The translations under genes were made by a program, and so were the position numbers. Source: a virus. From it: DNA of 21,544 bases. The notes beneath the pieces are model-generated. The model did no database searches. It saw only the letters and a program-made list of their open reading frames with translations, and was not told the origin of the DNA. This document shows, piece by piece, positions 4,171-18,606 of this stretch; the first letter of the stretch is position 1; each line of letters starts with the position of its first letter. The stretch covers positions 1 through 21,544 of the IMG/VR virus record IMGVR_UViG_3300006903_000171; one strand, 5' to 3'.

Positions 4171-5448
4171 TCAGGCAAAAACAGGCGAGTAATTCACCGT
4201 ATCGGTTATTCCCGAGATAACTCCCTGGCTCAACCGATTCAACACGCCGTAGTTCCAGTAGCTTGCAAACACGGCTTCCCACGCATCACGGTTGGACACA
4301 CGCTGCCACTTCGGCGCGTCTTGGAACGAAATCTCGCCGAAGTCCATCAGGTCTACGAAGGCGGTGTCCGGCCCATATACTGCGTACAACCGACCGCGCG
4401 GGCTCCAAGGGTCGTCTACCAACGTTGCATTAGCAACCTGCACGCCGGTAAATCCGCCCTTTAGCTCCATCTGCGGCGCACTGAAGCGCCGGAGACCAAG
4501 TAGAGACTCGCCGTACGCCTGCCAGATACCTGTGCTGGTTAGCAGCAACATGTTCTTGGGAGACTTACGCCAGTCTACGCCTGCACGCGCACGGATCGTG
4601 TTCAACAGCTTCATCACAATCGTTTCGTCAACGGTTGTTGATGTGATCTTATTCGCTGTCCAGCGGGGGTCGTTTAGGCCCTCGAAGGTTGCAAACGCTG
4701 CTTCTACGTCCATGATTGACTTTAGGCCGTGCGGTTCCGCACCGAACGAGGTGTCGTTCGCGTCTACTGCTGCGGGAACGCAAGTAACGATAACGTCGTT
4801 CGCCACCTGACCGGCAACTGCGGTCACGTAGTTGAATGTAGTATTGTCGCCGGAATTGCTGTGCGACAAAATCTGCGTCTTTCCCCGTAGTGCGAACGTT
4901 GTGCCGTTGAGCACAGCGATTGTATCGCCGTCCACGAGGTGGAGATTGCCGGGGCCTGCACCAGTAATCCCATACGGGGCCGATGCAATCACCTGGGTTG
5001 TTGAGTTGACGGTACCGATGACCGCGCGGATACCGAGCGAGTCGCCGTGGAGGATGCGCTCCTGCTCGATTTCCCACTGGTCCATCACGTCTTCTACGAT
5101 CTTCTTGGCAGCACTAATGTAGCTGCCTTTTTCATTGTTGGTCGCTTTCAAAGCCAATCCGTCAATCTGTACCTTTGCGTAAGTACGGGCGACGGAGAGG
5201 CGACCCTGCTTTTCACGCGCGATCTGCGAGACGGGTAGGAAGCCCGCTGCAGACGAAACGAATCCGCCACGCCGTTCAACCTTCACGTCGAAGAACAGGT
5301 CGTTACCTGCGTAGGTAACGTGTTCAGGACCGAGCTTGCGCGCTTGCGCCAAAAGAACAGTATTTATAGGAAAGATTTTCTTGCGGATGGGCAGATACAC
5401 ATTTTTAAGTACCGGCGTAAAATCTTGCAAGATTTGTGGGTCAGCCAA
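4171..5448 (-). CDS. Major capsid protein (HK97-fold type)
   Basis: This 425-residue protein matches phage major capsid proteins in length, composition and order. An N-terminal helical stretch is followed by a region with R-R-G-G and V-A-R-T-Y-A-K, a long helix around E-D-V-M-D-Q-W-E (spine-helix-like), a variable Gly/Thr-rich middle, and a C-terminal A-domain-like part ending in a tyrosine- and valine-rich strand. Such proteins assemble the icosahedral shell. The start is TTG at 5448 with AGGA seven bases upstream; a TAG lies in frame just before, which fixes the start. A weak start codon on a capsid gene is odd and may reflect the HNH insertion immediately upstream (HNH stop at 5467). Confidence 0.85.
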   Translation of the reverse strand: MADPQILQDFTPVLKNVYLPIRKKIFPINTVLLAQARKLGPEHVTYAGNDLFFDVKVERRGGFVSSAAGFLPVSQIAREKQGRLSVARTYAKVQIDGLALKATNNEKGSYISAAKKIVEDVMDQWEIEQERILHGDSLGIRAVIGTVNSTTQVIASAPYGITGAGPGNLHLVDGDTIAVLNGTTFALRGKTQILSHSNSGDNTTFNYVTAVAGQVANDVIVTCVPAAVDANDTSFGAEPHGLKSIMDVEAAFATFEGLNDPRWTANKITSTTVDETIVMKLLNTIRARAGVDWRKSPKNMLLLTSTGIWQAYGESLLGLRRFSAPQMELKGGFTGVQVANATLVDDPWSPRGRLYAVYGPDTAFVDLMDFGEISFQDAPKWQRVSNRDAWEAVFASYWNYGVLNRLSQGVISGITDTVNYSPVFA

Positions 5449-5982: not shown

Positions 5983-6011
5983 ATCCTAACTACTTGTGGT
6001 CTATTTGTCAA
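5983..6011 (-). promoter_or_regulatory. Sigma-70-like promoter for the virion operon
   Basis: On the minus strand, TTGACA (6011-6006) and TAGGAT (5988-5983) are 17 bases apart. The -35 box lies inside the left arm of the inverted repeat at 6001-6066. It faces the HNH and capsid genes. The region 5854-5982 downstream holds only very short frames and is taken as an untranslated leader. Confidence 0.65.
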
Positions 6012-6066
6012 GGGCTATGCGTCATTTTGACGCATACTGGCTAGAAACTGGTCCCTTGACAAATAG
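6001..6066. repeat. Inverted repeat enclosing a second palindrome (putative operator)
   Basis: A perfect 14-base inverted repeat (CTATTTGTCAAGGG at 6001-6014, its complement at 6053-6066) carries the -35 boxes of both divergent promoters. Outside it, GTGG/CCAC continues the pairing past one bulged base. Between the arms lies a second perfect palindrome, TATGCGTCA (6016-6024) and its complement (6028-6036), around a TTT centre. Paired symmetrical sites between divergent promoters are the usual layout of a phage switch operator. Confidence 0.65.
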
Positions 6067-6084
6067 CCACTAGCGGCTTACTAT
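6056..6084 (+). promoter_or_regulatory. Sigma-70-like promoter for the small-gene operon
   Basis: TTGACA (6056-6061) and TACTAT (6079-6084) are 17 bases apart. The predicted start is near 6091, giving a leader of about 66 bases before the ATG at 6157. The leader ends in an A/T-rich run of AATGA-like units and has no strong ribosome binding site. Confidence 0.7.
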
Positions 6085-6453: not shown

Positions 6454-6660
6454 GTGGACGACGAAGTGAGATGCCCGCGCTGCTTCGGCTTTGGCTCGCT
6501 GTGGCGTGCGCGTCCGCATCCATGCGGGTTGTGCGAGGGGGAGCGGGTTGTTACGGAGAAGCGTGCATTGGAGTGGCGGCTGGGGCTTTTGAAATTAATT
6601 GGATTCGATCGGGCGACTGTGCTGCGGCATATAGAGCAGAAGGGGCAGCCGCCGTGGTAA
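6454..6660 (+). CDS. Mini zinc-knuckle protein, family 1, copy A
   Basis: This 68-residue protein has two cysteine knuckles, C7-P-R-C10 and C24-x-L-C27, separated by 13 residues and followed by V-V-x5-A-L-E-W-R-L. The first knuckle continues F-G-F-G and the second E-G, close to the CxxCxGxG units of the DnaJ zinc domain but with only two units and no J domain. GTG at 6454 is chosen because the N-terminus M-D-D-E-V-R-C aligns with copies B and C, and AGGAG lies upstream. Function is unknown; zinc binding is inferred from the four cysteines. Confidence 0.75.
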   Translation: MDDEVRCPRCFGFGSLWRARPHPCGLCEGERVVTEKRALEWRLGLLKLIGFDRATVLRHIEQKGQPPW

Positions 6661-6791: not shown

Positions 6792-7036
6792 TATACTTAC
6801 TCGCAGTCGTCTCCGCCGTGCTTACATCCGTCTTCTGGCGGGTGTATATTCGCGCGACCGACCGGAGTAACGCTAACCAGGCGTTCCTCGGCGACTACGG
6901 GCTGCTGCTTATTGGGACGCTGATTCAGCAGTTGTGGGTTACTCATGGGGATGACGTGCGGATACTGCTGCTGTACGATACGGTAGCGGCGGCGACAACA
7001 TGGGGGATTAATCGGTGGACGCGCGCGACGAAGTAA
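6788..7036 (+). CDS. Small membrane protein with TTG start
   Basis: This 82-residue protein has a hydrophobic N-terminal segment (about residues 2-20), a polar stretch, a second segment at about 36-50 and a weaker third at about 58-72. TTG at 6788 is chosen because GAGGGG lies six bases before it and the codon overlaps the previous stop. The stop TAA overlaps an ATG in the next gene. It is probably an inner-membrane protein with two or three spans. No family is recognised; superinfection exclusion or membrane anchoring would be typical roles but are not shown. Confidence 0.6.
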   Translation: MIYLLAVVSAVLTSVFWRVYIRATDRSNANQAFLGDYGLLLIGTLIQQLWVTHGDDVRILLLYDTVAAATTWGINRWTRATK

Positions 7037-7251
7037 TGAGGTGTCCGCGTTGTGTAGGACGGGGGAGTATTGTGGTTGCTGACCCGCAGGAGCGAGATTG
7101 CTCCCTTTGTGATGGAAAGGGGGAAGTTGCGGTTGTTGATGCACTTAACTGGCGGTTGTTGCATATACTGCCGGGGAATAGCCCGATTATGATTACCCCC
7201 CAGCAGGCGGAGGAAATACGGGTGAAACACTTCGGCCCGGACCCAGCGTAG
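7015..7251 (+). CDS. Mini zinc-knuckle protein, family 1, copy B
   Basis: This 78-residue member is the most DnaJ-like: C10-P-R-C13-V-G-R-G and C29-S-L-C32-D-G-K-G are two full CxxCxGxG units, followed by V-x4-A-L-N-W-R-L. GTG at 7015 is preferred over ATG at 7036 because it aligns with the M-D-x-E-V N-terminus of copies A and C and has GGGGG upstream, although the ATG overlaps the previous stop as TAATG. The C-terminal half is variable and ends in a charged helix. The stop overlaps the next GTG as TAGTG. Confidence 0.75.
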   Translation: MDARDEVMRCPRCVGRGSIVVADPQERDCSLCDGKGEVAVVDALNWRLLHILPGNSPIMITPQQAEEIRVKHFGPDPA

Positions 7252-7496
7252 TGGAAGAAGACGTGAAGTGCCCGCGCTGCTTCGGCTGGGGGTCGCTGTG
7301 GATAGCGGATGATAAAACGCCGTCAGAGAAGTGTGCGCTTTGTGAAGGACGTAGGCGGGTTTCAACCATGATTGCGGTGAAGTGGAGGCTTTTTGCCACT
7401 CTACCCACTAGCAATACCGATCATAGCAAGGCGTGGCTAAATAACACACGGACAAAGCTAAAAGAGGCGCTTGACAAAGAGGGGTTGGTTGATTAG
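7251..7496 (+). CDS. Mini zinc-knuckle protein, family 1, copy C
   Basis: This 81-residue protein has C7-P-R-C10-F-G-W-G and C28-A-L-C31-E-G, followed by V-x4-A-V-K-W-R-L. It is closest to copy A (shared F-G-(F/W)-G-S-L-W after the first knuckle), suggesting recent duplication. The start is GTG at 7251, coupled to the stop of copy B. The last codons overlap the promoter of the tRNA array: its stop TAG forms the first half of the -10 box. The C-terminal helix is Lys/Glu-rich. Confidence 0.75.
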   Translation: MEEDVKCPRCFGWGSLWIADDKTPSEKCALCEGRRRVSTMIAVKWRLFATLPTSNTDHSKAWLNNTRTKLKEALDKEGLVD

Positions 7497-7499
7497 GAT
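7471..7499 (+). promoter_or_regulatory. Promoter of the tRNA array
   Basis: TTGACA (7471-7476) and TAGGAT (7494-7499) are exactly 17 bases apart, the same two hexamers as the virion-operon promoter. The -10 box ends eight bases before the first tRNA (7508), so transcription would begin almost at the tRNA 5' end. It lies inside the end of the zinc-knuckle gene copy C. Confidence 0.7.
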
Positions 7500-7507
7500 T
7501 GGTGTCC

Positions 7508-7580
7508 CGGGATTCGGGCTCAATGGAGAGCCGCCGCGTTTGGGGCGCGGAGATGGCGCGTTCGATTCGCGCAATCCCGA
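7508..7580 (+). tRNA. tRNA-Pro(TGG)
   Basis: Full cloverleaf by eye: acceptor CGGGATT/AATCCCG, D stem GGCT/AGCC, anticodon stem CCGCG/CGCGG with loop TTTGGGG, T stem GCGCG/CGCGC with loop TTCGATT, discriminator A. No encoded CCA. First tRNA of the array. Confidence 0.92.
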
Positions 7581-7586
7581 CTTTGC

Positions 7587-7660
7587 CTATCGTTCGCCAA
7601 GTCGGCCTAAGGCACTCGTTTGCAAAACGAGCATCGGTGGTTCGAATCCACCACGATAGT
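7587..7660 (+). tRNA. tRNA-Cys(GCA)
   Basis: Acceptor CTATCGT/ACGATAG, anticodon stem CTCGT/ACGAG with loop TTGCAAA, T stem GGTGG/CCACC, discriminator T as expected for Cys. No encoded CCA. Confidence 0.92.
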
Positions 7661-7683
7661 CTGCCGTGCAAAGGCTGGATCAA

Positions 7684-7756
7684 CAGGTGCGTGGCCTAGT
7701 TGGCGAGGCATTGGCTTGTGACGCCAAAGAATTGGGTTCGAATCCCAACCACCTGA
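7684..7756 (+). tRNA. tRNA-His(GTG), slightly atypical
   Basis: Anticodon stem TTGGC/GCCAA with loop TTGTGAC and T stem TTGGG/CCCAA are clear. The acceptor CAGGTGC/CCACCTG has a C-C mismatch at its base. The base before position 1 is A and the discriminator is A, so the usual extra 5' G facing C73 of histidine tRNAs is not encoded. Confidence 0.82.
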
Positions 7757-7763
7757 TTACCAC

Positions 7764-7835
7764 GCCGCTTTCGTCCACTGGCTAGGACCGCAGGCTTTCA
7801 ACCTGCAGAAGCGAGATCGAAACTCGCAAGCGGTA
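7764..7835 (+). tRNA. tRNA-Glu(TTC)
   Basis: Acceptor GCCGCTT/AAGCGGT (G-U at the end pair), D stem GTCC/GGAC, anticodon stem GCAGG/CCTGC with loop CTTTCAA, T stem GCGAG/CTCGC with loop ATCGAAA, discriminator A. Confidence 0.9.
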
Positions 7836-7852
7836 TTGTCGCTGTCACATTT

Positions 7853-7923
7853 GTCGCTTTGGCGTAATGGTTGCGCACCAGTCTTCCAAACTGGCGATGC
7901 GAGTTCGATTCTCGCAAGCGACT
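7853..7923 (+). tRNA. tRNA-Gly(TCC)
   Basis: Acceptor GTCGCTT/AAGCGAC, anticodon stem CCAGT/ACTGG with loop CTTCCAA, T stem GCGAG/CTCGC, discriminator T. A 94-base spacer follows that has a small hairpin (7938-7953) and an AT-rich patch, but no gene. Confidence 0.9.
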
Positions 7924-8017
7924 CTGCGGTGTGTTCACGCTCCGTCCCGAGCGCCGTGTTTTGCCTATTGGATTTGAATTTATGGATATTGATTAATGCA
8001 TCGGGTTGGAGCAACTT

Positions 8018-8091
8018 GGCTCGTTAGCGTAGCGGTGCAACGCGCTCGGCCTACACCCGAGAGACCCTAGGTTCGAATCCTAGACGAGTCA
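8018..8091 (+). tRNA. tRNA-Val(TAC), C at position 33
   Basis: Acceptor GGCTCGT/ACGAGTC, D stem GCGT/ACGC, anticodon stem CTCGG/CCGAG with loop CCTACAC, T stem CTAGG/CCTAG, discriminator A. The base before the anticodon is C instead of the near-universal U33. Confidence 0.9.
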
Positions 8092-8107
8092 CTGCCCGAC
8101 GAGTAAC

Positions 8108-8179
8108 GCTCACTTGGCGTATTGGCTGCGCCCTCGACTTTTAATCGAGACGAAGGTGGTTCGATTCCATCAGTGAGCA
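8108..8179 (+). tRNA. tRNA-Lys(TTT)
   Basis: Acceptor GCTCACT/AGTGAGC, anticodon stem CTCGA/TCGAG with loop CTTTTAA, T stem GGTGG/CCATC (one G-U), discriminator A. Confidence 0.92.
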
Positions 8180-8200
8180 CTTCCCGCCGCGTGCGGGCAT

Positions 8201-8274
8201 AGCAGTGGAGCAGGCACGGTTCCTGCGCCAGCCTCATAAGCTGGACTCAGTGGGTTCGACTCCCACCACTGCCA
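8201..8274 (+). tRNA. tRNA-Met(CAT)
   Basis: Anticodon stem CCAGC/GCTGG with loop CTCATAA, T stem GTGGG/CCCAC. The acceptor has six pairs (GCAGTG/CACTGC) plus an A-C mismatch at 1-72, an initiator-like trait, but the anticodon stem lacks the three G-C pairs of initiators. A separate Ile(TAT) tRNA makes a lysidine-type Ile2 less likely. Confidence 0.85.
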
Positions 8275-8280
8275 TTACTC

Positions 8281-8353
8281 GCCGCCTTCGTCTATTCGGT
8301 TAGGATGCTGCGTTCTCAACGCAAGAAGATGGGTTCGAATCCCATAGGCGGTA
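8281..8353 (+). tRNA. tRNA-Glu(CTC)
   Basis: Acceptor GCCGCCT/AGGCGGT (G-U end pair), loop TTCTCAA between CTGCG and CGCAA (outer pair weak), T stem ATGGG/CCCAT, discriminator A. The D arm TTCGTCTA resembles bacterial Glu tRNAs. Confidence 0.87.
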
Positions 8354-8375
8354 CTACTCACTCGTCGAGGTTCGT

Positions 8376-8522
8376 ATGGGGTGGAGAGCACGTCTCCGTC
8401 GCGCGCCGAAGGGGCGGCGGAAGCTTGGAAGTAAGAAGCGGCATATGCAGTGGAAGCTGCGGCATCACCTCCGTGTTAAGCGAGACAAGTCCGCGACAAA
8501 GAAGCGGACGTATTCGATTTAG
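8376..8522 (+). CDS. Very basic 48-residue protein inside the tRNA array
   Basis: The frame starts at ATG 8376 with GAGG five bases upstream and ends at TAG 8522, six bases before tRNA-Leu(CAA). It has about 20 Arg and Lys residues plus several His, is spread with basic clusters (R-R-A-P-K-G-R-R-K, K-K-R-H, K-K-R-T), and has only a couple of acidic residues. Such composition points to nucleic-acid binding, like ribosomal-protein tails. It has no cysteines, unlike most of its neighbours. I know no family for it. The strong start site and clean fit between two tRNAs support a real gene. Confidence 0.6.
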   Translation: MGWRARLRRAPKGRRKLGSKKRHMQWKLRHHLRVKRDKSATKKRTYSI

Positions 8523-8528
8523 TCAACT

Positions 8529-8603
8529 GCTGCCTTAGCCCAACTGGGTAGAGGCATTGCGCTCAAACCGCAATTAGTGTAGGTTCGAATCCTACAGGCA
8601 GCA
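8529..8603 (+). tRNA. tRNA-Leu(CAA) with short variable loop
   Basis: Acceptor GCTGCCT/AGGCAGC, anticodon stem TTGCG/CGCAA with loop CTCAAAC, T stem GTAGG/CCTAC, discriminator A. The variable region is only five bases (8574-8578), whereas bacterial Leu tRNAs normally carry a long variable arm. Confidence 0.85.
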
Positions 8604-8606
8604 CTC

Positions 8607-8680
8607 GCCTACTTGGTGCAATTGGTAGACACACCAGTCTTAGAAACTGGCTCTTGGGGGTTCGAGTCCCTCAGTAGGCA
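8607..8680 (+). tRNA. tRNA-Leu(TAG) with short variable loop
   Basis: Acceptor GCCTACT/AGTAGGC, anticodon stem CCAGT/ACTGG with loop CTTAGAA, T stem GGGGG/CCCTC, discriminator A. The D arm is very Leu-like (AATTGGTAGAC), yet the variable region is five bases (8651-8655). Confidence 0.9.
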
Positions 8681-8682
8681 CT

Positions 8683-8755
8683 GCTCGCTTAGCTCAGTTG
8701 GAAGAGCAATCGCCTCTTAAGCGATAGCGCGTTGGTTCGACCCCAACAGCGAGCA
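8683..8755 (+). tRNA. tRNA-Lys(CTT)
   Basis: Acceptor GCTCGCT/AGCGAGC, anticodon stem ATCGC/GCGAT with loop CTCTTAA, T stem GTTGG/CCAAC, discriminator A. Begins two bases after the Leu(TAG) discriminator. Confidence 0.92.
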
Positions 8756-8762
8756 CTACACC

Positions 8763-8836
8763 CGGCGGCTGGCGCAATTGGTTAGCGCGCTCGCCTGATA
8801 CGCGAGAGGTTCTTGGTTCAACTCCAAGGCTGCCGA
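8763..8836 (+). tRNA. tRNA-Ile(GAT)
   Basis: Acceptor CGGCGGC/GCTGCCG (one G-U), anticodon stem CTCGC/GCGAG with loop CTGATAC, T stem CTTGG/CCAAG, discriminator A. Confidence 0.92.
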
Positions 8837-8846
8837 CTTTTTCTCT

Positions 8847-8972
8847 ATGACTACTTGTGTAATAAGCGGCAACTGCGTCCAATGCGGCGGCGCAGTTGTC
8901 GAGACCACTTGCGGAACGCCCTGCCCGCATTGTAAGTTTAAGTACCCGCTCGGCGATTGCAGCGAGCGGTAG
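8847..8972 (+). CDS. 41-residue cysteine-rich zinc-ribbon-like protein in the tRNA array
   Basis: The frame runs from ATG 8847, ten bases after tRNA-Ile(GAT), to TAG 8972, six bases before tRNA-Thr. It has seven cysteines: C4, then C10-x2-C13-G-G, C22, C26-P-H-C29 and C38. The two C-x2-C knuckles about 12 residues apart form a zinc-ribbon pattern. There is no Shine-Dalgarno; after tRNA 3' processing the mRNA would begin only ten bases before the ATG. It is distinct from the family 1 mini proteins because the C-terminal R-L block is missing. Confidence 0.6.
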   Translation: MTTCVISGNCVQCGGAVVETTCGTPCPHCKFKYPLGDCSER

Positions 8973-8978
8973 ACACAC

Positions 8979-9052
8979 GCCGGGTTAGCTCAGCTAGGGA
9001 GAGCGCGGAGCCTGTAACTCCGATGTCGGGGGTTCGATTCCCTCACTCGGCT
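8979..9052 (+). tRNA. tRNA-Thr(TGT), C at position 33
   Basis: Acceptor GCCGGGT/ACTCGGC, anticodon stem CGGAG/CTCCG with loop CCTGTAA, T stem GGGGG/CCCTC, discriminator T. Position 33 is C instead of U. Confidence 0.88.
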
Positions 9053-9071
9053 CTTGACCACCGAGGCGCGT

Positions 9072-9254
9072 ATGGTAACGTGTCCGCGTTGTAAAGGAAG
9101 TAGTAAGCCGTATGTGCGCCCGTGTAATTTGTGCAACAGTAAGCAAGAGGTTGATGATTTAGTTGGCGCAACGTATAGATTGGGGTTACCGCCGATTGCT
9201 CCATTCTCGAATACAGATAGAGCTTGGTGGGGCACGCAGTGGCTGGGTAAGTAA
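9072..9254 (+). CDS. Mini zinc-knuckle protein, family 1, copy D
   Basis: This 60-residue copy has C4-P-R-C7 and C18-N-L-C21, then V-D-D-L-V-x-A-T-Y-R-L. It is shorter before the first knuckle than copies A-C, and the glycines of the CxxCxGxG units are mostly lost. ATG at 9072 is preferred over TTG at 9054 because GAGG lies five bases before it and the TTG overlaps the trailer of tRNA-Thr. The stop lies one base before tRNA-Tyr. The C-terminus is aromatic (W-W-G-T-Q-W). Confidence 0.7.
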   Translation: MVTCPRCKGSSKPYVRPCNLCNSKQEVDDLVGATYRLGLPPIAPFSNTDRAWWGTQWLGK

Positions 9255-9255
9255 T

Positions 9256-9339
9256 GGTGGAGACGCCTCCTGGGTGAGGCACCTGACTGTAAATCAGGCG
9301 AGGCACGCCTCACTTCGGGTTCGACTCCCGGTTCCACCA
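9256..9339 (+). tRNA. tRNA-Tyr(GTA)
   Basis: 84 bases with acceptor GGTGGAG/TTCCACC, anticodon stem CCTGA/TCAGG with loop CTGTAAA, a long variable arm (GAGGC/GCCTC hairpin), T loop TTCGACT, discriminator A. Confidence 0.92.
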
Positions 9340-9340
9340 C

Positions 9341-9420
9341 TTCGCCCGACAAGCGGCCCGCGAGCGGGATTGTATACAAGCCGCTTCTACCGGAGTTAAC
9401 GCCGATTGTAGATAGGGCGA
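9341..9420 (+). ncRNA. Structured spacer 1 in the tRNA array, unassigned
   Basis: This 80-base spacer between tRNA-Tyr and tRNA-Ser(GCT) can close with TCGCCC (9342-9347) and GGGCGA (9415-9420). Inside it, AAGCGG/CCGCTT (9351-9356/9381-9386) encloses a CCCG-CGAG-CGGG hairpin and the palindrome TTGTATACAA. It has no T loop or anticodon arm, so it is not a tRNA. It may be a degenerate tRNA relic, a processing element or a small RNA. Confidence 0.35.
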
Positions 9421-9424
9421 TTTA

Positions 9425-9508
9425 GGAGCGTTGGCAGAGAGGCTGATCGCGCGCGGTTGCTAACCGCGTTTGCTTAACGCAACGGAGGTTCGAATCCTTC
9501 ACGCTCCG
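9425..9508 (+). tRNA. tRNA-Ser(GCT)
   Basis: 84 bases: acceptor GGAGCGT/ACGCTCC, anticodon stem CGCGG/CCGCG with loop TTGCTAA, long variable arm (TTGC/GCAA hairpin), T stem GGAGG/CCTTC, discriminator G as expected for Ser. Confidence 0.92.
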
Positions 9509-9518
9509 TGTGCCTATT

Positions 9519-9604
9519 GGAAGCTGTCCGGCTGGTCGAGGGCGCAGTCCTGAAAACTGTTGCGGGTTAAACACCCGTCAGGGGTTCGAGTCCCTTAGCT
9601 TCCG
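9519..9604 (+). tRNA. tRNA-Ser(TGA), C at position 33
   Basis: 86 bases: acceptor GGAAGCT/AGCTTCC, anticodon stem GCAGT/ACTGT with loop CCTGAAA (C33 instead of U33), long variable arm (CGGG/CCCG hairpin), T stem AGGGG/CCCTT, discriminator G. Confidence 0.92.
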
Positions 9605-9607
9605 TTT

Positions 9608-9681
9608 GCGATTGTGGCCTAGCGGTTTAAGGCACCCGCCTGTCACGCGGGGGAGCGCGGGTTCGAATCCCGCCAGTCGCG
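9608..9681 (+). tRNA. tRNA-Asp(GTC)
   Basis: Acceptor GCGATTG/CAGTCGC, anticodon stem CCCGC/GCGGG with loop CTGTCAC, T stem GCGGG/CCCGC, discriminator G as expected for Asp. Confidence 0.92.
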
Positions 9682-9684
9682 TAG

Positions 9685-9755
9685 CTCGTCATGCGTGCTG
9701 GAGTGCAACTGCGTTTCTACCGCAGCCGACGCGGGTTCGATTCCTGCTGGCGAGA
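9685..9755 (+). tRNA. tRNA-Arg(TCT)
   Basis: Acceptor CTCGTCA/TGGCGAG (one U-G), anticodon stem CTGCG/CGCAG with loop TTTCTAC, T stem GCGGG/CCTGC, discriminator A. Only one base separates it from the next tRNA. Confidence 0.88.
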
Positions 9756-9756
9756 C

Positions 9757-9830
9757 TGCCGCTTAGCTTACTCGGGTAAAGCAGGGAGCTTATATCTCTC
9801 AGATGGTGGGTTCAAATCCCACAGCGGCGA
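9757..9830 (+). tRNA. tRNA-Ile(TAT)
   Basis: Acceptor TGCCGCT/AGCGGCG (U-G end pair), D stem GCTT/AAGC, anticodon stem GGGAG/CTCTC with loop CTTATAT, T stem GTGGG/CCCAC, discriminator A. The TAT anticodon reads AUA directly; most bacteria use a lysidine-modified CAT tRNA for that codon. Confidence 0.88.
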
Positions 9831-9833
9831 TTG

Positions 9834-9906
9834 CGCTACTTAGCTCAAGTGGTAGAGCGGCGGTTTGAAGCACCGCGCGTGCGTGGTTCGATTCCACGAG
9901 TAGCGA
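9834..9906 (+). tRNA. tRNA-Phe(GAA)
   Basis: Acceptor CGCTACT/AGTAGCG, anticodon stem GCGGT/ACCGC with loop TTGAAGC, T stem CGTGG/CCACG, discriminator A. Confidence 0.92.
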
Positions 9907-9908
9907 CT

Positions 9909-9982
9909 GCCCGGTGGCTCCCTCAACGGTCTAGGCCGACCTAGAGCATCGCCTGCTCGACAGGATACAGGGGGCGAAAGGC
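9909..9982 (+). ncRNA. Structured spacer 2 in the tRNA array, unassigned
   Basis: This segment between tRNA-Phe and tRNA-Arg(ACG) pairs GCTCCCT (9917-9923) with AGGGGGC (9969-9975), and outside it GCC with GGC. Inside are a perfect TCTAGG-CCGA-CCTAGA hairpin (9930-9945) and a CCTG-CTCGA-CAGG hairpin (9952-9964). I could not fold it as a tRNA: no T arm and no 7-base anticodon loop on a sound stem. No ORF is present. Confidence 0.35.
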
Positions 9983-9987
9983 TGCAC

Positions 9988-10061
9988 TCGCCGGTAGCTC
10001 AGTAGGATAGAGCGCCTGACTACGAATCAGGAGGCGGTGGGTTCGATTCCCACCCGGCGGA
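9988..10061 (+). tRNA. tRNA-Arg(ACG)
   Basis: Acceptor TCGCCGG/CCGGCGG (U-G end pair), anticodon stem CCTGA/TCAGG with loop CTACGAA, T stem GTGGG/CCCAC, discriminator A. A34 would need host TadA to become inosine. Confidence 0.92.
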
Positions 10062-10064
10062 CTT

Positions 10065-10138
10065 CTCGCTATAGCTCATTAGGATAGAGCGTCACGTTCC
10101 GAACGTGGAGGCGGTTGGTTCAAATCCAGCTAGCGAGA
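10065..10138 (+). tRNA. tRNA-Arg(CCG)
   Basis: Acceptor CTCGCTA/TAGCGAG, anticodon stem TCACG/CGTGG with loop TTCCGAA, T stem GTTGG/CCAGC with loop TTCAAAT, discriminator A. Confidence 0.9.
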
Positions 10139-10140
10139 CT

Positions 10141-10419
10141 ATGACAAGCCATTCGAATCGGAAGCTGCTCAGTTGGCAACTAGTATTGGTCGAGGCGGCA
10201 GCCGCAATCGTCGCCGCTCGTCCCGCCGACTTCCCCGTCGCAGCCACATCGGCGAACCCGCCGGAGGTTGCGATGGATGTCGCGCAGCACGTTGTACTGC
10301 TGGCGAACGCGATGGCGGCACTAACCATCGCAGGACCAACGCGGAAACAACAGGAGGCGGCGAGTGGTCCCGTGCCCGCTGTGCCGGACGGTAGCGCAGC
10401 TACACCAGCATCTGGTTGA
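10141..10419 (+). CDS. Ala-rich helical hypothetical protein in the tRNA array
   Basis: This 92-residue frame starts at ATG 10141, two bases after the discriminator of tRNA-Arg(CCG), with no Shine-Dalgarno. Processing of the tRNA 3' end would leave a nearly leaderless mRNA beginning CTATG. The protein is rich in Ala and Val with two likely helices (L-V-L-V-E-A-A-A-A-I-V-A and D-V-A-Q-H-V-V-L-L-A-N-A) and a disordered Pro/Ala/Ser tail. It overlaps the next gene by 56 bases, which is unusual, so its last part may be constrained by that gene. I do not recognise it. Confidence 0.5.
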   Translation: MTSHSNRKLLSWQLVLVEAAAAIVAARPADFPVAATSANPPEVAMDVAQHVVLLANAMAALTIAGPTRKQQEAASGPVPAVPDGSAATPASG

Positions 10420-10585
10420 CTTTAGCTGCACGCTCTGCGGCAGTACGGGGGAGGTTGCGGACGATATTCCTCTTCGCCACCGCTTACGTCTCCCCCCGCT
10501 CGATGGCAGCCGCAAGTTTGAATGTTACATGAAGTTTGTGCAGGGCCACGAATACCGCTCGTGGTTCTACGAAGCGAAGCAGTAA
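10364..10585 (+). CDS. Mini zinc-knuckle protein, family 1, copy E
   Basis: This 73-residue copy has C4-P-L-C7 and C22-T-L-C25-G-S-T-G-E-V, then A-D-D-x4-R-H-R-L. Its start is GTG 10364 with a full AGGAGG six bases upstream, the best ribosome binding site in the array. The first knuckle is followed by R-T-V-A instead of Gly-rich turns, so only the second keeps the CxxCxGxG form. The C-terminus is aromatic and charged. The stop lies five bases before tRNA-Gln(CTG). Confidence 0.75.
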   Translation: MVPCPLCRTVAQLHQHLVDFSCTLCGSTGEVADDIPLRHRLRLPPLDGSRKFECYMKFVQGHEYRSWFYEAKQ

Positions 10586-10589
10586 GCAT

Positions 10590-10661
10590 TGCCCTGTCGT
10601 CTAATTGGCAGGACGCTTGTCTCTGACACAAGCGATCTTGGTTCGAATCCAAGTGGGGCAA
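10590..10661 (+). tRNA. tRNA-Gln(CTG)
   Basis: Acceptor TGCCCTG/TGGGGCA (two G-U pairs at the base), anticodon stem CTTGT/ACAAG with loop CTCTGAC, T stem CTTGG/CCAAG, discriminator A. Confidence 0.9.
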
Positions 10662-10663
10662 CT

Positions 10664-10734
10664 TCGCCGAGTTTGACACCGTAGTTTGAAGAGCAGGATA
10701 TGCGGCTGGGCCTTTGGTCCTGCTAACTCGGCGA
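10664..10734 (+). ncRNA. Structured spacer 3 in the tRNA array, unassigned
   Basis: A perfect ten-base terminal stem, TCGCCGAGTT (10664-10673) with its complement (10725-10734), closes the spacer between tRNA-Gln(CTG) and tRNA-Asn. A second perfect stem, AGCAGGA (10692-10698) with TCCTGCT (10718-10724), stacks directly on it. This is the strongest non-tRNA fold in the array. Size (71 bases) and coaxial stacking recall a tRNA, but anticodon and T loops are absent. Confidence 0.5.
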
Positions 10735-10738
10735 TCAA

Positions 10739-10811
10739 TGGGGTATAGCTCAACCGGCGGAGCGCGCGGCTGTTAACCGCGAGGTTGCAGGTTCGAAGCC
10801 TGCTGCCCCAG
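10739..10811 (+). tRNA. tRNA-Asn(GTT)
   Basis: Acceptor TGGGGTA/TGCCCCA, anticodon stem CGCGG/CCGCG with loop CTGTTAA, T stem GCAGG/CCTGC, discriminator G. Confidence 0.92.
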
Positions 10812-10823
10812 TTGTTACACAAC

Positions 10824-10895
10824 GGGCTGCTAGTGATATCGGGAGCACACTGCACTTGCACTGCAGTAGACAGGGTTCGACTCCCTGGCGGTCCA
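10824..10895 (+). tRNA. tRNA-Ala(TGC)
   Basis: Acceptor GGGCTGC/GCGGTCC (two G-U pairs, one of them G3-U70, the mirror site of the usual alanine determinant), anticodon stem CTGCA/TGCAG with loop CTTGCAC, T stem CAGGG/CCCTG, discriminator A. Confidence 0.9.
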
Positions 10896-10898
10896 CTT

Positions 10899-10971
10899 AG
10901 CCTACTAGTCGCAACGGCGCGACGCCCGTCTCCAAAACGGGAAATGCAAGGTTCGATCCCTTGGTGGGCTG
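10899..10971 (+). tRNA. tRNA-Trp(CCA)
   Basis: Acceptor AGCCTAC/GTGGGCT, anticodon stem CCCGT/ACGGG with loop CTCCAAA, T stem CAAGG/CCTTG, discriminator G as expected for Trp. Confidence 0.92.
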
Positions 10972-10996
10972 CTCTCGTCGCTTAACCAGCGACTAC

Positions 10997-11067
10997 TGGG
11001 GTTTCGTCCAGCGGCAGGACTGCTGACTTTGGATCAGCATACCTAGGTTCGAATCCTAGAGCCCCAA
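10997..11067 (+). tRNA. tRNA-Gln(TTG)
   Basis: Acceptor TGGGGTT/AGCCCCA, anticodon stem GCTGA/TCAGC with loop CTTTGGA, T stem CTAGG/CCTAG, discriminator A. The TGGGG 5' end is typical of Gln. Last tRNA of the array. Confidence 0.92.
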
Positions 11068-11089
11068 CTACCTCCCACTCGGCGGGCGC

Positions 11090-12206: not shown

Positions 12207-12277
12207 GGCCACCACACGACGAACGCCGCGACGAAACCGAGCAGCGCCCAGATTGGAGAAACGCTACGGGTCCACAT
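12203..12277 (-). CDS. 24-residue single-span membrane peptide
   Basis: From ATG 12277 the frame gives a short polar start followed by an unbroken hydrophobic segment of about 17 residues (W-A-L-L-G-F-V-A-A-F-V-V-W-W), enough to cross a membrane. It overlaps the upstream zinc gene by 14 bases and its stop overlaps the next start as ATGA. The coupling on both sides argues that it is translated. No family is recognised. A chance hydrophobic frame cannot be excluded. Confidence 0.4.
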   Translation of the reverse strand: MWTRSVSPIWALLGFVAAFVVWWP

Positions 12278-12479
12278 GTTGCCAGCCTACCTTTCGCGTT
12301 TGGGTAAGTACAACGCTACGCCGCCGTTTTGGATCGCGGCGGCAACTTGTCCCGTAGCAGGGGACCGCGATACGTAACCGCACGAACAACGCGCGCAGAT
12401 ACGCAACGCGGCCCGTCCCGCCACAGATTGCGCACGTCGCGTACACTTCGCCACGCGCGCGGCATAGCTCGCAACGCAT
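12264..12479 (-). CDS. Mini zinc-knuckle protein, family 1, copy G
   Basis: This 71-residue copy has C3-E-L-C6 and C16-A-I-C19-G-G-T-G-R-V, then A-Y-L-R-A-L-F-V-R-L, and then an extra pair C41-x4-C46. The extra pair is shared with copies F and H but absent from A-E. ATG 12479 overlaps the stop of copy F as TAATG. The C-terminus is Arg-rich. It is the counterpart, in the MoxR operon, of the copies placed among the tRNA genes. Confidence 0.75.
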   Translation of the reverse strand: MRCELCRARGEVYATCAICGGTGRVAYLRALFVRLRIAVPCYGTSCRRDPKRRRSVVLTQTRKVGWQHVDP

Positions 12480-13801: not shown

Positions 13802-13973
13802 CGGTCGCCTCTCGCACGTAGCGCGCGGTATCGCGTGCGTCAGCCACTGCATTCATTAGCGCCGCGTAGCGCACGTCCGTATGACGTAACTGTAACTCGA
13901 CAGCTTCCCACACTTCAACGATGCGGTCGATGGTGTCGAGTAGGTCGGCGGTTGCTTCGCGTGATGTGAGCAT
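13779..13973 (-). CDS. Small helical protein after the VWA gene
   Basis: This 64-residue protein is acidic and almost wholly helical by pattern (heptad-like L-L-x-x-I-x-x-I-V-E-V-W-E-A-V), suggesting a coiled coil or helical hairpin. ATG 13973 overlaps the VWA gene's stop as TAATG, so its translation is coupled to the VWA protein. A partner or regulator of the ATPase-VWA complex is possible by position only. No family is recognised. Confidence 0.6.
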   Translation of the reverse strand: MLTSREATADLLDTIDRIVEVWEAVELQLRHTDVRYAALMNAVADARDTARYVREATDAETLES

Positions 13974-15178
13974 TAGTCGCCCCCGGTCATTTCGATAACC
14001 TCGCCCCACGGCGGCGCAAAACTGTCGTTATGCCCTTCGATCAACAGCCACAATACCGCGTAGTCGGGCGACTCTTGCTCGCGGGTGAAGTCACTGCAAT
14101 ACCCGTCCGTCAAGTAGATGACCGCGACTACATCTTCCTTCCGGTAGTGGTCAATCACTTCTACGTACGACGTACCACCACCGCCTTTAGGCCGACACTG
14201 CGCGACGTTCTCGATATCCTGTTCGTGCAATTCCGTATCACACCACGCGACGGTAAGCGTTGCGCGTCCCATGCTCGCCGCAGCTTGCAGACAGCCGTTA
14301 ACTTCCGCGACCGCCTTCTGTATCAACGCATCGGTCATGCTACCGCTTGTATCGACAGCAAAGATGATGCGCGCGACGCGCGGCATGCGCGCACTAGGCA
14401 AGTAGACATCGTGCGATGCCATGTAGCGGCGGTTGGGTTGTCTCCATGAATAGTCGTCGCGCGTTACGTCGCTAATGAAACGCGCGAGCAACTCCCGCCA
14501 CGGGAGAACGGGAGCAAGCACGTCGTCAAAGTGACGCTCCATGCCCGCCGGAAGTTTCCCCGCCGCCTTCGCTGCATTCAGCGCCCGCTTGACACGCAGC
14601 TTTGTATCGGCGATCGCCTCTTGCTTCGCTGCCCCGGTCAACGGCTTCCCCTGTTCATCGATCGCATCCATTACGCCGCCGCAACCGTAATCGGGGCCGG
14701 GCTTGCTGCATCCCGGGTTGTGCTGGCCGTTTTGCCCGCCGCATTGCGGACACGGCGGCGGTTGTTTGTACAACCGTTCGGGCGTGTCGTTAATCGGCGG
14801 GATACAACCTTGCGGCAATTTCAACCGCGCAAGCTCCGCGACCAAGTAGTTAACGACGTGATCGCACGCGATATTCCACGCCGACGGGTCGCGCCCCTCG
14901 CGCCGCAAGCAATGCAGGTTGGCGACGTGACAACCTTCGTGGCATAGCACGCCGAGCAACTCCGCGCGCGGGAGTTGCGTGACGAAAGATGGGTTGTAGT
15001 AGAGGCGTTTCCCATCGGTCGCCATCGTGGGAATGTCCCACGCGACTACGCGCTGTAGATGGAGGACAAGCGTTGCGTAGAACGGGAAGTCAAGGATAAG
15101 GTCGGTTACCGCGATTCCTAACGCGTGCTTTGCCTTATCCTCGAATGCTTTTATTTCTGCTTGTGTTGGCGCTTGCAT
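13973..15178 (-). CDS. VWA-like protein with metallopeptidase-like N-terminus
   Basis: This 401-residue protein combines an N-terminal putative metallopeptidase domain and a C-terminal VWA-like domain, as in DUF2201-type proteins that pair with MoxR ATPases. The N-terminal zinc motif is H80-E81-x2-H84 with a further H89. A Cys-rich insert follows (C143-P-Q-C146-G-G, C157, C166). The VWA metal site has D276-T-S278-G-S280, T336 in G-G-G-G-T and D358 in L-T-D-G, all key residues present. ATG 15178 starts one base after the ATPase stop. The pair probably acts as a machine in which the ATPase remodels a target recognised by the VWA domain; the phage target is unknown. Confidence 0.8.
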   Translation of the reverse strand: MQAPTQAEIKAFEDKAKHALGIAVTDLILDFPFYATLVLHLQRVVAWDIPTMATDGKRLYYNPSFVTQLPRAELLGVLCHEGCHVANLHCLRREGRDPSAWNIACDHVVNYLVAELARLKLPQGCIPPINDTPERLYKQPPPCPQCGGQNGQHNPGCSKPGPDYGCGGVMDAIDEQGKPLTGAAKQEAIADTKLRVKRALNAAKAAGKLPAGMERHFDDVLAPVLPWRELLARFISDVTRDDYSWRQPNRRYMASHDVYLPSARMPRVARIIFAVDTSGSMTDALIQKAVAEVNGCLQAAASMGRATLTVAWCDTELHEQDIENVAQCRPKGGGGTSYVEVIDHYRKEDVVAVIYLTDGYCSDFTREQESPDYAVLWLLIEGHNDSFAPPWGEVIEMTGGD

Positions 15179-15179
15179 G

Positions 15180-16202
15180 TTATACCCCCAACGCTTTCGC
15201 GTTCTTCGCTCCCCACTTCGTGAATGCCGCAACCCACTCGGGCGATTCAATCAGCTTCGCGTCACGCGCGGCAACGTCTTTGACGAATAGGACGTTGAAT
15301 TCGACGGGACAGCGGTCGAGGTATTCGAATGTCGGCGCGACGTTCTCCCGCTTGCATCCATGCGCCAGCGCCCCCATGAGCGCATACATCACGTCGGGCT
15401 TTTTGTCGGGGACGGGCGCAGACTTGGGCGATTTGTAAATCACTTCGCGGTCGGGCAGTTCAGTGAACAGTTGATAGAACGCGACAAACTCCGCCGCCGC
15501 TCCCTCGCCCACTTGCGCGCCAATCAATTCCGCGTTGATCATATTCGTGTCCAGCAGCGGTTGCACGCCTTCGAACCATGCGCGCGGCGTGGGGGAACGC
15601 TTCAGCGCCGCCGCCGCTGCCGGGTCGAATGCGTTGATAAGCTCACTACGGAAGCGCGCGAAGCTTGCGAGAATGGGCGAGCCGTTGTTTTGCAGCACGT
15701 GCGCTACCCAATCGTCTACGTCGAAATCGATATGGACGACGCCACCCGTGAAGCGGTCAAGCAGTGGGGACAGGATGCCATTGACGCCCGCGCGGTCACT
15801 ACTGCGATTCGTCGCTGCGATGAATGACACAGTATCGGAAATGCGGCGGTTGTTCACGCGGCGTGCGTGCAGCGCTTGCATCAGGGGCGCTTGCACGGAC
15901 AACGGCGTTTGTCCAAGGTCGTCTAGGAAAACGACGGTTGGCTTATCCGTCTCGCAAATCTCTTTCCATTCCGCGAATGGTAGGAAGTCGGCGGCGGTCC
16001 CGTCGGCGCTGCGGAATGGCAACCCCTTGATGTCGGTCGGATCGCTGATAACGCCGTGAATGATGCGTAGCGCGTAGCCGAGTTGTTCGGCCACCTGATG
16101 GACGATGCTTGTCTTACCAACACCGGGGGAAGCAACCGCGAGCGTAGGACGGCGCGCGGGAATGGTCACGCGCAGTAAGGATGCGAGTTGGGAGAGTTTC
16201 AT
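15180..16202 (-). CDS. MoxR-type AAA+ ATPase
   Basis: This 340-residue protein has the AAA+ set of motifs: Walker A S25-P-G-V-G-K-T-S32, Walker B V-F-L-D94-D95, sensor 1 A-A-T-N132, and an arginine finger candidate in P-L-L-D-R150-F. The order and the L-L-D-R-F pattern match the MoxR group, which are chaperone-like ATPases acting with VWA proteins. ATG 16202 is chosen over the upstream codon at 16253 because AAGGA lies upstream and the ATPase fold begins there. It is followed one base later by its VWA partner. No membrane segment is visible, so it acts in the cytoplasm. Confidence 0.88.
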   Translation of the reverse strand: MKLSQLASLLRVTIPARRPTLAVASPGVGKTSIVHQVAEQLGYALRIIHGVISDPTDIKGLPFRSADGTAADFLPFAEWKEICETDKPTVVFLDDLGQTPLSVQAPLMQALHARRVNNRRISDTVSFIAATNRSSDRAGVNGILSPLLDRFTGGVVHIDFDVDDWVAHVLQNNGSPILASFARFRSELINAFDPAAAAALKRSPTPRAWFEGVQPLLDTNMINAELIGAQVGEGAAAEFVAFYQLFTELPDREVIYKSPKSAPVPDKKPDVMYALMGALAHGCKRENVAPTFEYLDRCPVEFNVLFVKDVAARDAKLIESPEWVAAFTKWGAKNAKALGV

Positions 16203-17964: not shown

Positions 17965-18334
17965 AGGCGGGAAGAAGAATCGGAAGTGGGGGAGGCAGGC
18001 GGACTCGCCGAGCTTTAAGAAGTACGTGCGCCTACATCCGCCCGACGCGTCGTATAAAAAGATCAAGAAGCGGCCTGGTTACCAGCGCGCGAAGCAGTTG
18101 CGTAGTGTGCTGCATGAGCTTGCCGACGCGACGCGCGTCACCGCCGAAATGGAGGAACGCGTGCAGCCTGACGCACTTCATCGCAATCGTGTATACATTG
18201 AACATGCACAACGTGTGCGCGGGCTGCTGACTCGCTATGCGCGGCAGCATCGGATGAGCATGCGCGCGCCGCGTATCGCCGAGACAGGCAGATGCGGGAA
18301 GCGGGAGTGTGCGGTGTGTAAGAGGACAGTGTGA
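17948..18334 (+). CDS. Highly basic protein with C-terminal three-cysteine motif
   Basis: This 128-residue protein has a Lys/Arg-rich N-terminus (G-G-K-K-N-R-K-W-G-R), a central segment (Y-V-R-L-H-P-P-D-A-S) and K-K-I-K-K-R-P-G-Y, and a C-terminal C116-G-K-R-E-C121-A-V-C124. The charge suggests nucleic-acid binding; the cysteines may hold a metal together with a nearby His or with a partner. ATG 17948 overlaps copy 3 by 17 bases and has GAGGAA seven bases upstream. The stop overlaps the next ATG as TGATG. No family is recognised. Confidence 0.65.
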   Translation: MAGVRRGGKKNRKWGRQADSPSFKKYVRLHPPDASYKKIKKRPGYQRAKQLRSVLHELADATRVTAEMEERVQPDALHRNRVYIEHAQRVRGLLTRYARQHRMSMRAPRIAETGRCGKRECAVCKRTV

Positions 18335-18606
18335 TGAGTTATACTTCTGCTCACTACAGTATTCCTAACAGGTATGCTGTAAAATACGATGTGAAACCGC
18401 ATACGTCGGTTGCGTGTCCAATTTGTCGTTACCGGCCAAAGAAGATTGCGGTTAACTGTGCCATCTGCGGCGGCCTTCGTCGCATCCCGCCAGAACGCGG
18501 GGCGATGCTGAAATTAGGAATGGAGATACCATGCTGGTGCGGCTACTGCGCCCACAACCTGCTGGGAAAGATGCAAGTGTTCATAACCCTGAACACGACG
18601 CCTTGA
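18334..18606 (+). CDS. Mini zinc-knuckle protein, family 1, copy H
   Basis: This 90-residue copy has a longer N-terminus than the others, then C28-P-I-C31 and C42-A-I-C45-G-G, the R-G-A-M-L-K-L block, and a third set C67-x-C69-x2-C72. The third set links it to copies F and G of the MoxR operon (common pattern I-P-C or V-P-C followed by C). ATG 18334 overlaps the preceding stop; GAGG lies upstream. The stop overlaps the next gene as TGATG. It is the only copy in the recombination operon. Confidence 0.75.
   Translation: MSYTSAHYSIPNRYAVKYDVKPHTSVACPICRYRPKKIAVNCAICGGLRRIPPERGAMLKLGMEIPCWCGYCAHNLLGKMQVFITLNTTP

Follow-up and report, generated by a model that had tools for sequence, protein, structure and literature searches.

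We identified an array of 28 transfer RNA (tRNA) genes in the IMG/VR virus record IMGVR_UViG_3300006903_000171, which was analysed as one window comprising the whole record of 21,544 bases. The array lies at positions 7508-11068 on the plus strand, serves 20 of 20 amino acids, and carries 28 different anticodons. We assign a probability of roughly 0.55 to the reading that it is a functional phage tRNA supply, most likely one that stands in for most of the tRNA pool when host tRNAs become scarce. Moreover, sequence comparisons suggest that tRNA-rich phages, ranging from a soil lineage with genomes of about 50 kb to a 735-kb megaphage, probably encode their own catalytic RNase P RNA, located in the small lineage inside the array, such that tRNA maturation would be phage-supplied. 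The trait appears to be widespread and undescribed. The window would represent a member of this lineage with a 20-amino-acid array but no RNase P RNA in it, and one relative appears to have lost both.

The initial annotation had listed 28 tRNAs for all 20 amino acids from the sequence alone, and ARAGORN returned exactly this set, isotype for isotype. In an Rfam scan with fast filters, the tRNA family RF00005 accepts 24 of them at its gathering score. tRNA-Pro reaches 33.1 bits in a permissive Rfam scan and tRNA-Arg(UCU) 33.2 bits in a genome search, both above the 29-bit cut-off, and tRNA-Ser(UGA) is claimed by the related Rfam tRNA-Sec model (41.8 bits, E 4.5e-6). Because tRNA-Trp was not reported by the filtered Rfam scan of the window, we trained a covariance model (R2) on 43 class I tRNAs drawn from two related phages, leaving out those of the window, and ran it with filters off. 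R2 recovers 28 of 28 window tRNAs, 27 of them at E <= 8e-10; tRNA-Trp scores 57.8 bits and tRNA-Pro 50.5 bits. tRNA-Ser(UGA) is weak with this model (E 0.008) because it represents class I tRNAs only. A covariance-model scan rejecting several genes would have undermined the initial list, but each of the 20 amino acids retains a tRNA accepted by such a model. At 7.9 tRNAs per kb (28 in 3.56 kb), the array belongs among phage tRNA gene clusters as defined by at least 15 tRNAs at a density of at least 2 per kb (PMC6409571). Minus-strand Rfam matches such as Plastid-ycf2 proved to be mirror images of the tRNAs. The genes are as follows, each found by ARAGORN, Rfam and R2 unless otherwise given:

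7508..7581, plus strand, tRNA-Pro(UGG); ARAGORN, permissive Rfam scan, R2
7587..7661, plus strand, tRNA-Cys(GCA)
7684..7756, plus strand, tRNA-His(GUG), discriminator A, no G-1:C73
7764..7835, plus strand, tRNA-Glu(UUC)
7853..7924, plus strand, tRNA-Gly(UCC)
8018..8092, plus strand, tRNA-Val(UAC)
8108..8180, plus strand, tRNA-Lys(UUU)
8201..8274, plus strand, tRNA-Met(CAU), A1.C72 mismatch
8281..8354, plus strand, tRNA-Glu(CUC)
8529..8604, plus strand, tRNA-Leu(CAA), variable loop of 5 nt
8607..8681, plus strand, tRNA-Leu(UAG), variable loop of 5 nt
8683..8756, plus strand, tRNA-Lys(CUU)
8763..8837, plus strand, tRNA-Ile(GAU)
8979..9053, plus strand, tRNA-Thr(UGU)
9256..9340, plus strand, tRNA-Tyr(GUA), long variable arm
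9425..9508, plus strand, tRNA-Ser(GCU), long variable arm
9518..9605, plus strand, tRNA-Ser(UGA), long variable arm; ARAGORN, Rfam tRNA-Sec model, R2
9607..9682, plus strand, tRNA-Asp(GUC)
9685..9756, plus strand, tRNA-Arg(UCU); ARAGORN, Rfam genome search, R2
9757..9830, plus strand, tRNA-Ile(UAU)
9834..9907, plus strand, tRNA-Phe(GAA)
9988..10062, plus strand, tRNA-Arg(ACG)
10065..10139, plus strand, tRNA-Arg(CCG)
10590..10662, plus strand, tRNA-Gln(CUG)
10739..10811, plus strand, tRNA-Asn(GUU)
10824..10896, plus strand, tRNA-Ala(UGC), G3:U70 kept
10899..10972, plus strand, tRNA-Trp(CCA); ARAGORN, R2
10997..11068, plus strand, tRNA-Gln(UUG)

The cloverleaves are intact and have been preserved between lineages through compensatory changes. 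The acceptor, anticodon and T stems of the window contain 473 standard pairs out of 476, compared with 253 expected when the 3' letters are reshuffled. Between the window and relative G002, 152 stem pairs have changed on both sides and still pair, 22 have changed on one side and pair, and only 7 are broken; other pairs of lineages give a similar pattern. Discriminators match bacterial identity rules in nearly every isotype (G in Ser, Asn, Asp and Trp; U in Gly, Cys and Thr; A in most others), and G3:U70 is kept in all tRNA-Ala listed for the lineage. None of the 28 genes encodes CCA. Directly after the discriminator, 20 of 28 genes have CT and 6 have TT, a pattern shared by the relatives, and several neighbouring tRNAs are separated by just 1-3 bases. 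We propose that R-C-U may take the place of the RCC of RCCA in pairing with a GGU loop of RNase P RNA.

Three isotypes have unusual features. The window tRNA-Met(CAU) was taken as a plain elongator in the ARAGORN frame, but the covariance frame reveals A1.C72, and a 1:72 mismatch is a hallmark of bacterial initiator tRNAs. Its D and anticodon stems, including position 11:24, are elongator-like, and the three G:C pairs are absent from the anticodon stem. Among the tRNAs of G000, G002, G004 and G012 the 1:72 mismatch is confined to Met(CAU) (A.C in three, C.U in one), and it also occurs in one CAU tRNA each of phages KVP40, Gilson and Rctr197k. Across the window, L002, L004, L012 and these three phages the mismatches comprise A.C, C.U, U.U and U.C, and most of these tRNAs lack the three G:C pairs; outside Met(CAU), a mismatch at 1:72 is a great rarity in the arrays concerned. 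tRNA-His is without G-1:C73 in G000, G002 and G004, while C73 is present in G007 and G012; the window, L002 and L004 genes also have a 7:66 mismatch. Finally, ordinary bacterial tRNA-Leu has a long variable arm, whereas both window tRNA-Leu have variable loops of five nucleotides. Such Leu tRNAs are not unique to the lineage, as they are also present in KVP40, phiCB2047-B, Gilson and Rctr197k.

The array lies in a tailed-phage genome, with phage genes on both sides and the capsid gene, which defines the lineage, nearby:

4171..5448, minus strand, major capsid protein (phrog_14242, E 2.9e-25)

The contig also encodes an AAA ATPase, a metallopeptidase/VWA protein, an exonuclease and a Sak4-like protein, and relatives encode a terminase, a DNA polymerase and a primase/helicase. 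This setting differs from that of a host chromosomal or plasmid array unit, and a search of 72,556 plasmids gave no more than short, scattered tRNA matches. A tblastn search of 50,697 phage records found no match to the capsid, nor do these records contain a near nucleotide match to the window. Twelve capsid relatives were found in IMG/VR, eight of which have tRNAs. According to ARAGORN, seven loci (L001, L010, L002/L003, L004, L007 and L012) have 28-33 tRNAs, with position and order almost unchanged; L001 and L010 are near-copies of the window. The array keeps its place and order across five lineages, among which capsid identity is 65-95%. In L004 the covariance model adds three genes, read by eye as Glu(UUC), Gly(GCC) and Lys(UUU), and a Tyr(GUA)-like cloverleaf (anticodon by eye) missed by ARAGORN lies at L004:6113-6205 on the minus strand, with C33 instead of the near-universal U33. 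L004 thus has about 34 genes for 20 amino acids. ARAGORN likewise missed a 99-nt tRNA-like gene, apparently for Leu(UAA), at L003:7962-8060 and L002:7934-8032 (both minus strand, 58 bits); its variable region is enlarged or carries an insert.

The array has its own promoter and occupies an operon that is separated from the structural operon, on the minus strand, by an inverted repeat:

6001..6066, no strand, inverted repeat CTATTTGTCAAGGG / CCCTTGACAAATAG around TATGCGTCA-TTT-TGACGCATA
6011-5983, minus strand, sigma-70-like promoter TTGACA-17-TAGGAT toward the structural genes (10/12 match)
6056..6084, plus strand, sigma-70-like promoter TTGACA-17-TACTAT before the plus-strand operon (10/12 match)
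7471..7499, plus strand, sigma-70-like promoter TTGACA-17-TAGGAT, ending 8 nt before tRNA-Pro

The promoter at 6056-6084 lies in the inverted repeat and faces the small open reading frames (ORFs) that precede the array. At the same array-start place, a promoter matches at 12/12 positions in G012 and 11/12 in G007; none is evident in G002 and G004. The sigma-70-like promoters point to a bacterial host. The terminase and polymerase do not lead to a host, as their matches are 22-33% identical and belong to phages of unrelated hosts, and no capsid or portal relatives were found in 84,980 GTDB bacterial and archaeal genomes.

We identified a likely RNase P RNA, the RNA of the enzyme that trims tRNA 5' ends, in the sister arrays. 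A match to the RNaseP_arch model occurs at L007:4885-5106 on the minus strand (E 9e-14 within the array scan and 3e-15 on its own) and one to RNaseP-T at L012:4540-4749 on the minus strand (E 0.001), both below the gathering score. The gene follows tRNA-Asn on the same strand as the array, and homologous sequence occupies this slot in L002 and L004. Further representatives and the corresponding window slot are:

L002:6054-6319, minus strand, RNase P RNA, homologous sequence after Asn
L004:4964-5218, minus strand, RNase P RNA, homologous sequence after Asn
L066:2041-2272, plus strand, RNase P RNA in a phage contig
L080:9995-10229, plus strand, RNase P RNA in a phage contig
10812..10823, plus strand, window slot of 12 nt between Asn and Ala without RNase P RNA, where G002, G004, G007 and G012 have the gene

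In total the RNA is present in G002, G003, G004, G007, G012 and G015. The paired motif GAGGAAGTTCGCG ... CAGAANCGCGGCTAT is found in 13 IMG/VR contigs of 10 kb to 306 kb, and blastn identified the RNA in metagenomic phage records of 735 kb (LR756501) and 635 kb. The P4 helix (AG, a bulged U, and UCGCG with CGCGGCU) is invariant in 11 aligned sequences, and the next helix shows compensatory changes. In L075, the match between the homologue and RNaseP_bact_a is full-length (E 3e-8). A P4 helix with its bulged U and the blocks that are universally conserved are common to the sister-phage RNA and to the bacterial and archaeal RNase P RNAs of Rfam clan CL00002, but the phage RNA is about 220-250 nt long and falls under the Rfam gathering scores. 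Outside the lineage, six of seven contigs found by the pattern have 13-74 tRNAs; the seventh, L072 (40,569 bp), carries the RNA at 187 bits and zero tRNAs over threshold. A motif search, a regular expression for the paired motif, and a covariance model of the phage RNase P RNAs (R1) run with filters off were all negative in the window, which covers part of this phage's genome, with nothing credible from R1 (best E 0.23), which also gave nothing credible in L001, L010 or the array-less relative G006. In the literature on phage tRNAs and RNase P, as far as our partial coverage of mainly titles and abstracts extends, phage RNase P RNA is not described, and the text of the huge-phage paper does not mention RNase P.

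These features allow a model in which host RNA polymerase would transcribe the array from the promoter before tRNA-Pro into a long precursor. RNase P would cut the 5' ends; as far as the window shows this would be the host enzyme, and in most sister phages the phage RNase P RNA probably assists. Host 3' enzymes would trim after the discriminator, the host CCA enzyme would add the tail, because no CCA is encoded, and host synthetases would charge the products. The shortage itself may be brought about by tRNA-cutting defences or by general decay of host RNA in infection. The rescue of infection from tRNA-cutting defences by phage tRNAs is established (PMC11555353) and has been proposed for tRNA-rich phages generally (PMC10264068). 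The location of the RNase P RNA on the same strand in sister arrays fits bulk tRNA production.

Several observations weigh against replacement of the tRNA pool. Under strict wobble (G-U, U-G and inosine), 15 sense codons are unread, which amount to 20% of codons used in the window, and cmo5U-type reading still leaves eight. UUA is the sole gap, at 6.8 per 1000 codons, only with four-way U34 reading of fourfold boxes, on which the set therefore depends; the initial annotation's statement that standard wobble leaves just UUA unread holds with such reading but not under strict wobble. Relative G012, with 33 tRNAs including Leu(UAA), has no gap under four-way reading. The window has a single Met(CAU) tRNA for initiation and elongation, so that one of these functions is missing, and complete decoding (every sense codon plus initiator and elongator Met) is not attained. 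tRNA-His lacks its canonical identity pair. The anticodons of G002, G004, G007 and G012 fit their own codon use better than random same-amino-acid choices (P 0.000-0.03), which makes the sister sets both broad and modestly tuned. A scan that covered part of the relatives' proteins recognised neither tRNA repair genes nor synthetase genes. Finally, all tRNAs but three (Gln, Ser and Gly) are gone from G006, a relative with 90% capsid identity whose genome is almost fully recovered, and other protein genes occupy the place of the array (L006:4602-7529). The DNA polymerase gene is divided between the two ends of the 49,497-bp G006 contig, one encoding residues 57-479 and the other residues 503-906, which implies a circularly permuted genome of about 49.6 kb; G012, G007 and G004, at 47.5-51.1 kb, also have little missing. 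Loss from so close a relative indicates that the array is not indispensable. The initial proposal that the phage can decode its own mRNA when host tRNAs are destroyed or limiting is thus sustained in part. The array is real and conserved, covers 20 amino acids, has its own promoter and is not codon-tuned. However, the gaps described above and its dispensability argue against full self-sufficiency, and the host would still be needed to add CCA, to charge the tRNAs and, judging from the window, to trim their 5' ends.

A different role, in which the tRNAs boost the supply for codons used more by the phage than by its host, gains some credit from the tuning of the four sister sets and from XacN1, which shows such a tendency against its host (PMC5852040). 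We nevertheless consider it doubtful for the window. The codons that pair with its anticodons by Watson-Crick rules make up 0.484 of its own usage compared with 0.511 for random same-amino-acid choices (P 0.89); a value below random expectation indicates a set that is broad but not tuned. No anticodon is duplicated, low-need Trp, Met, Cys and His are also covered, and 28 randomly drawn anticodons would reach 20 amino acids with P of only about 0.002. A broad set without duplicates and without a match to its own codon use favours pool replacement over codon supplementation, and these results taken with the loss in G006 favour a replacement that would be useful in some hosts.

It is also conceivable, though rather improbable, that the array is a library directed at many host nucleases, from which only a few tRNAs matter at any one time, as insensitive substitutes for the isoacceptors that are cut. 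Phage tRNAs are known to act in this way against retron-linked nucleases (PMC11555353), and the same has been proposed for mycobacteriophages whose tRNAs have altered anticodon loops (PMC10264068). Array content differs among sister phages, and both the two Leu tRNAs without the usual long variable arm and the Tyr-like gene of G004 with C33 would fit this explanation. However, most anticodon loops are ordinary, and a library has no need to span all 20 amino acids. That the array is selfish or decaying freight from a host or plasmid, drifting without benefit, as the reduction to three tRNAs in one relative might indicate, is close to refuted, since the stems remain near-perfect, with compensatory changes, in sequences that have diverged strongly; the conserved order and discriminators and the promoter also speak against it.

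The array can be compared with those of known phages. The jumbo phage XacN1 has 56 tRNAs for all 20 amino acids in a 385-kb genome, and resembles the window in its clustered tRNAs for every amino acid (PMC5852040). In contrast to the window, its tRNAs are in long terminal repeats, more than one is Met(CAU), its Leu tRNAs have long variable arms, and CCA is encoded in 28 of 28 tRNAs examined. In the survey by Morgado and Vicente, 8 of 228 phage tRNA clusters have all 20 isotypes, in genomes of 72-617 kb compared with about 50 kb in the window lineage (PMC6409571). The initial annotation's word 'exceptional' is apt for a genome of about 50 kb, but larger phages are known to carry complete sets (PMC5852040, PMC6409571). 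KVP40, a Vibrio phage, and Gilson, a Streptomyces phage, share large tRNA sets, some short-variable-loop Leu tRNAs and one 1:72-mismatched Met(CAU) each; Gilson tRNAs are also mostly without CCA, with CT after the discriminator in 17 of 35. However, both phages have genomes of 128-245 kb and more than one Met(CAU), and searches of the KVP40 array region and of Gilson between 64 and 84 kb gave no convincing RNase P RNA match. The dense mycobacterial tRNA array units, a putative anti-defence system, are found on chromosomes and plasmids as well as phages (PMC5966550, PMC12803027), whereas the window array lies among phage genes near a capsid gene. The window array is thus a new, unusually compact example, and its relatives add a new combination of a tRNA array with RNase P RNA in a phage of about 50 kb.

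Other elements of the window are less closely connected with the array. Small zinc-ribbon-like ORFs (CxxC pairs, DnaJ-like) occur at 6454-6660, 7015-7251, 7251-7496, 8847-8972, 9054-9254, 10364-10585, 12264-12479 and 18331-18606; those between tRNAs were considered as partners of the array and rejected, as they are not conserved in relatives. A short ORF at 8377-8523, between tRNA-Glu(CUC) and tRNA-Leu(CAA), encodes a very basic peptide (MGWRARLRRAPKGRRKLGSKKRHMQWKLRHH...). The array gaps at 9341-9424, 9908-9987 and 10663-10738 fold stably, and the permissive Rfam scan gave no family match for them. Together, the AAA ATPase and the metallopeptidase/VWA protein resemble N4 gp24/gp25, the latter at about 31% identity. 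Although PHROGs and many phage records label the gp25 homologue (13973-15250) 'HNH endonuclease', its match is to a metallopeptidase/VWA family (Pfam DUF2201), and it is paired with a MoxR-type AAA ATPase. Despite this pair, membership in the Schitoviridae (N4-like) was rejected, given that the capsid has no tblastn match among the 50,697 phage records.

The reason that phages carry tRNAs is a half-century-old question. In this lineage, a genome of about 50 kb gives about 7% of its length to a near-minimal 20-amino-acid set, and these small phages seem able to provide a large part of the tRNA pool themselves. Relatives that add RNase P RNA or drop the array form a natural series in which pool replacement and codon tuning can be weighed against each other. 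Should the RNase P RNA prove active, viruses would join the carriers of this ancient ribozyme.

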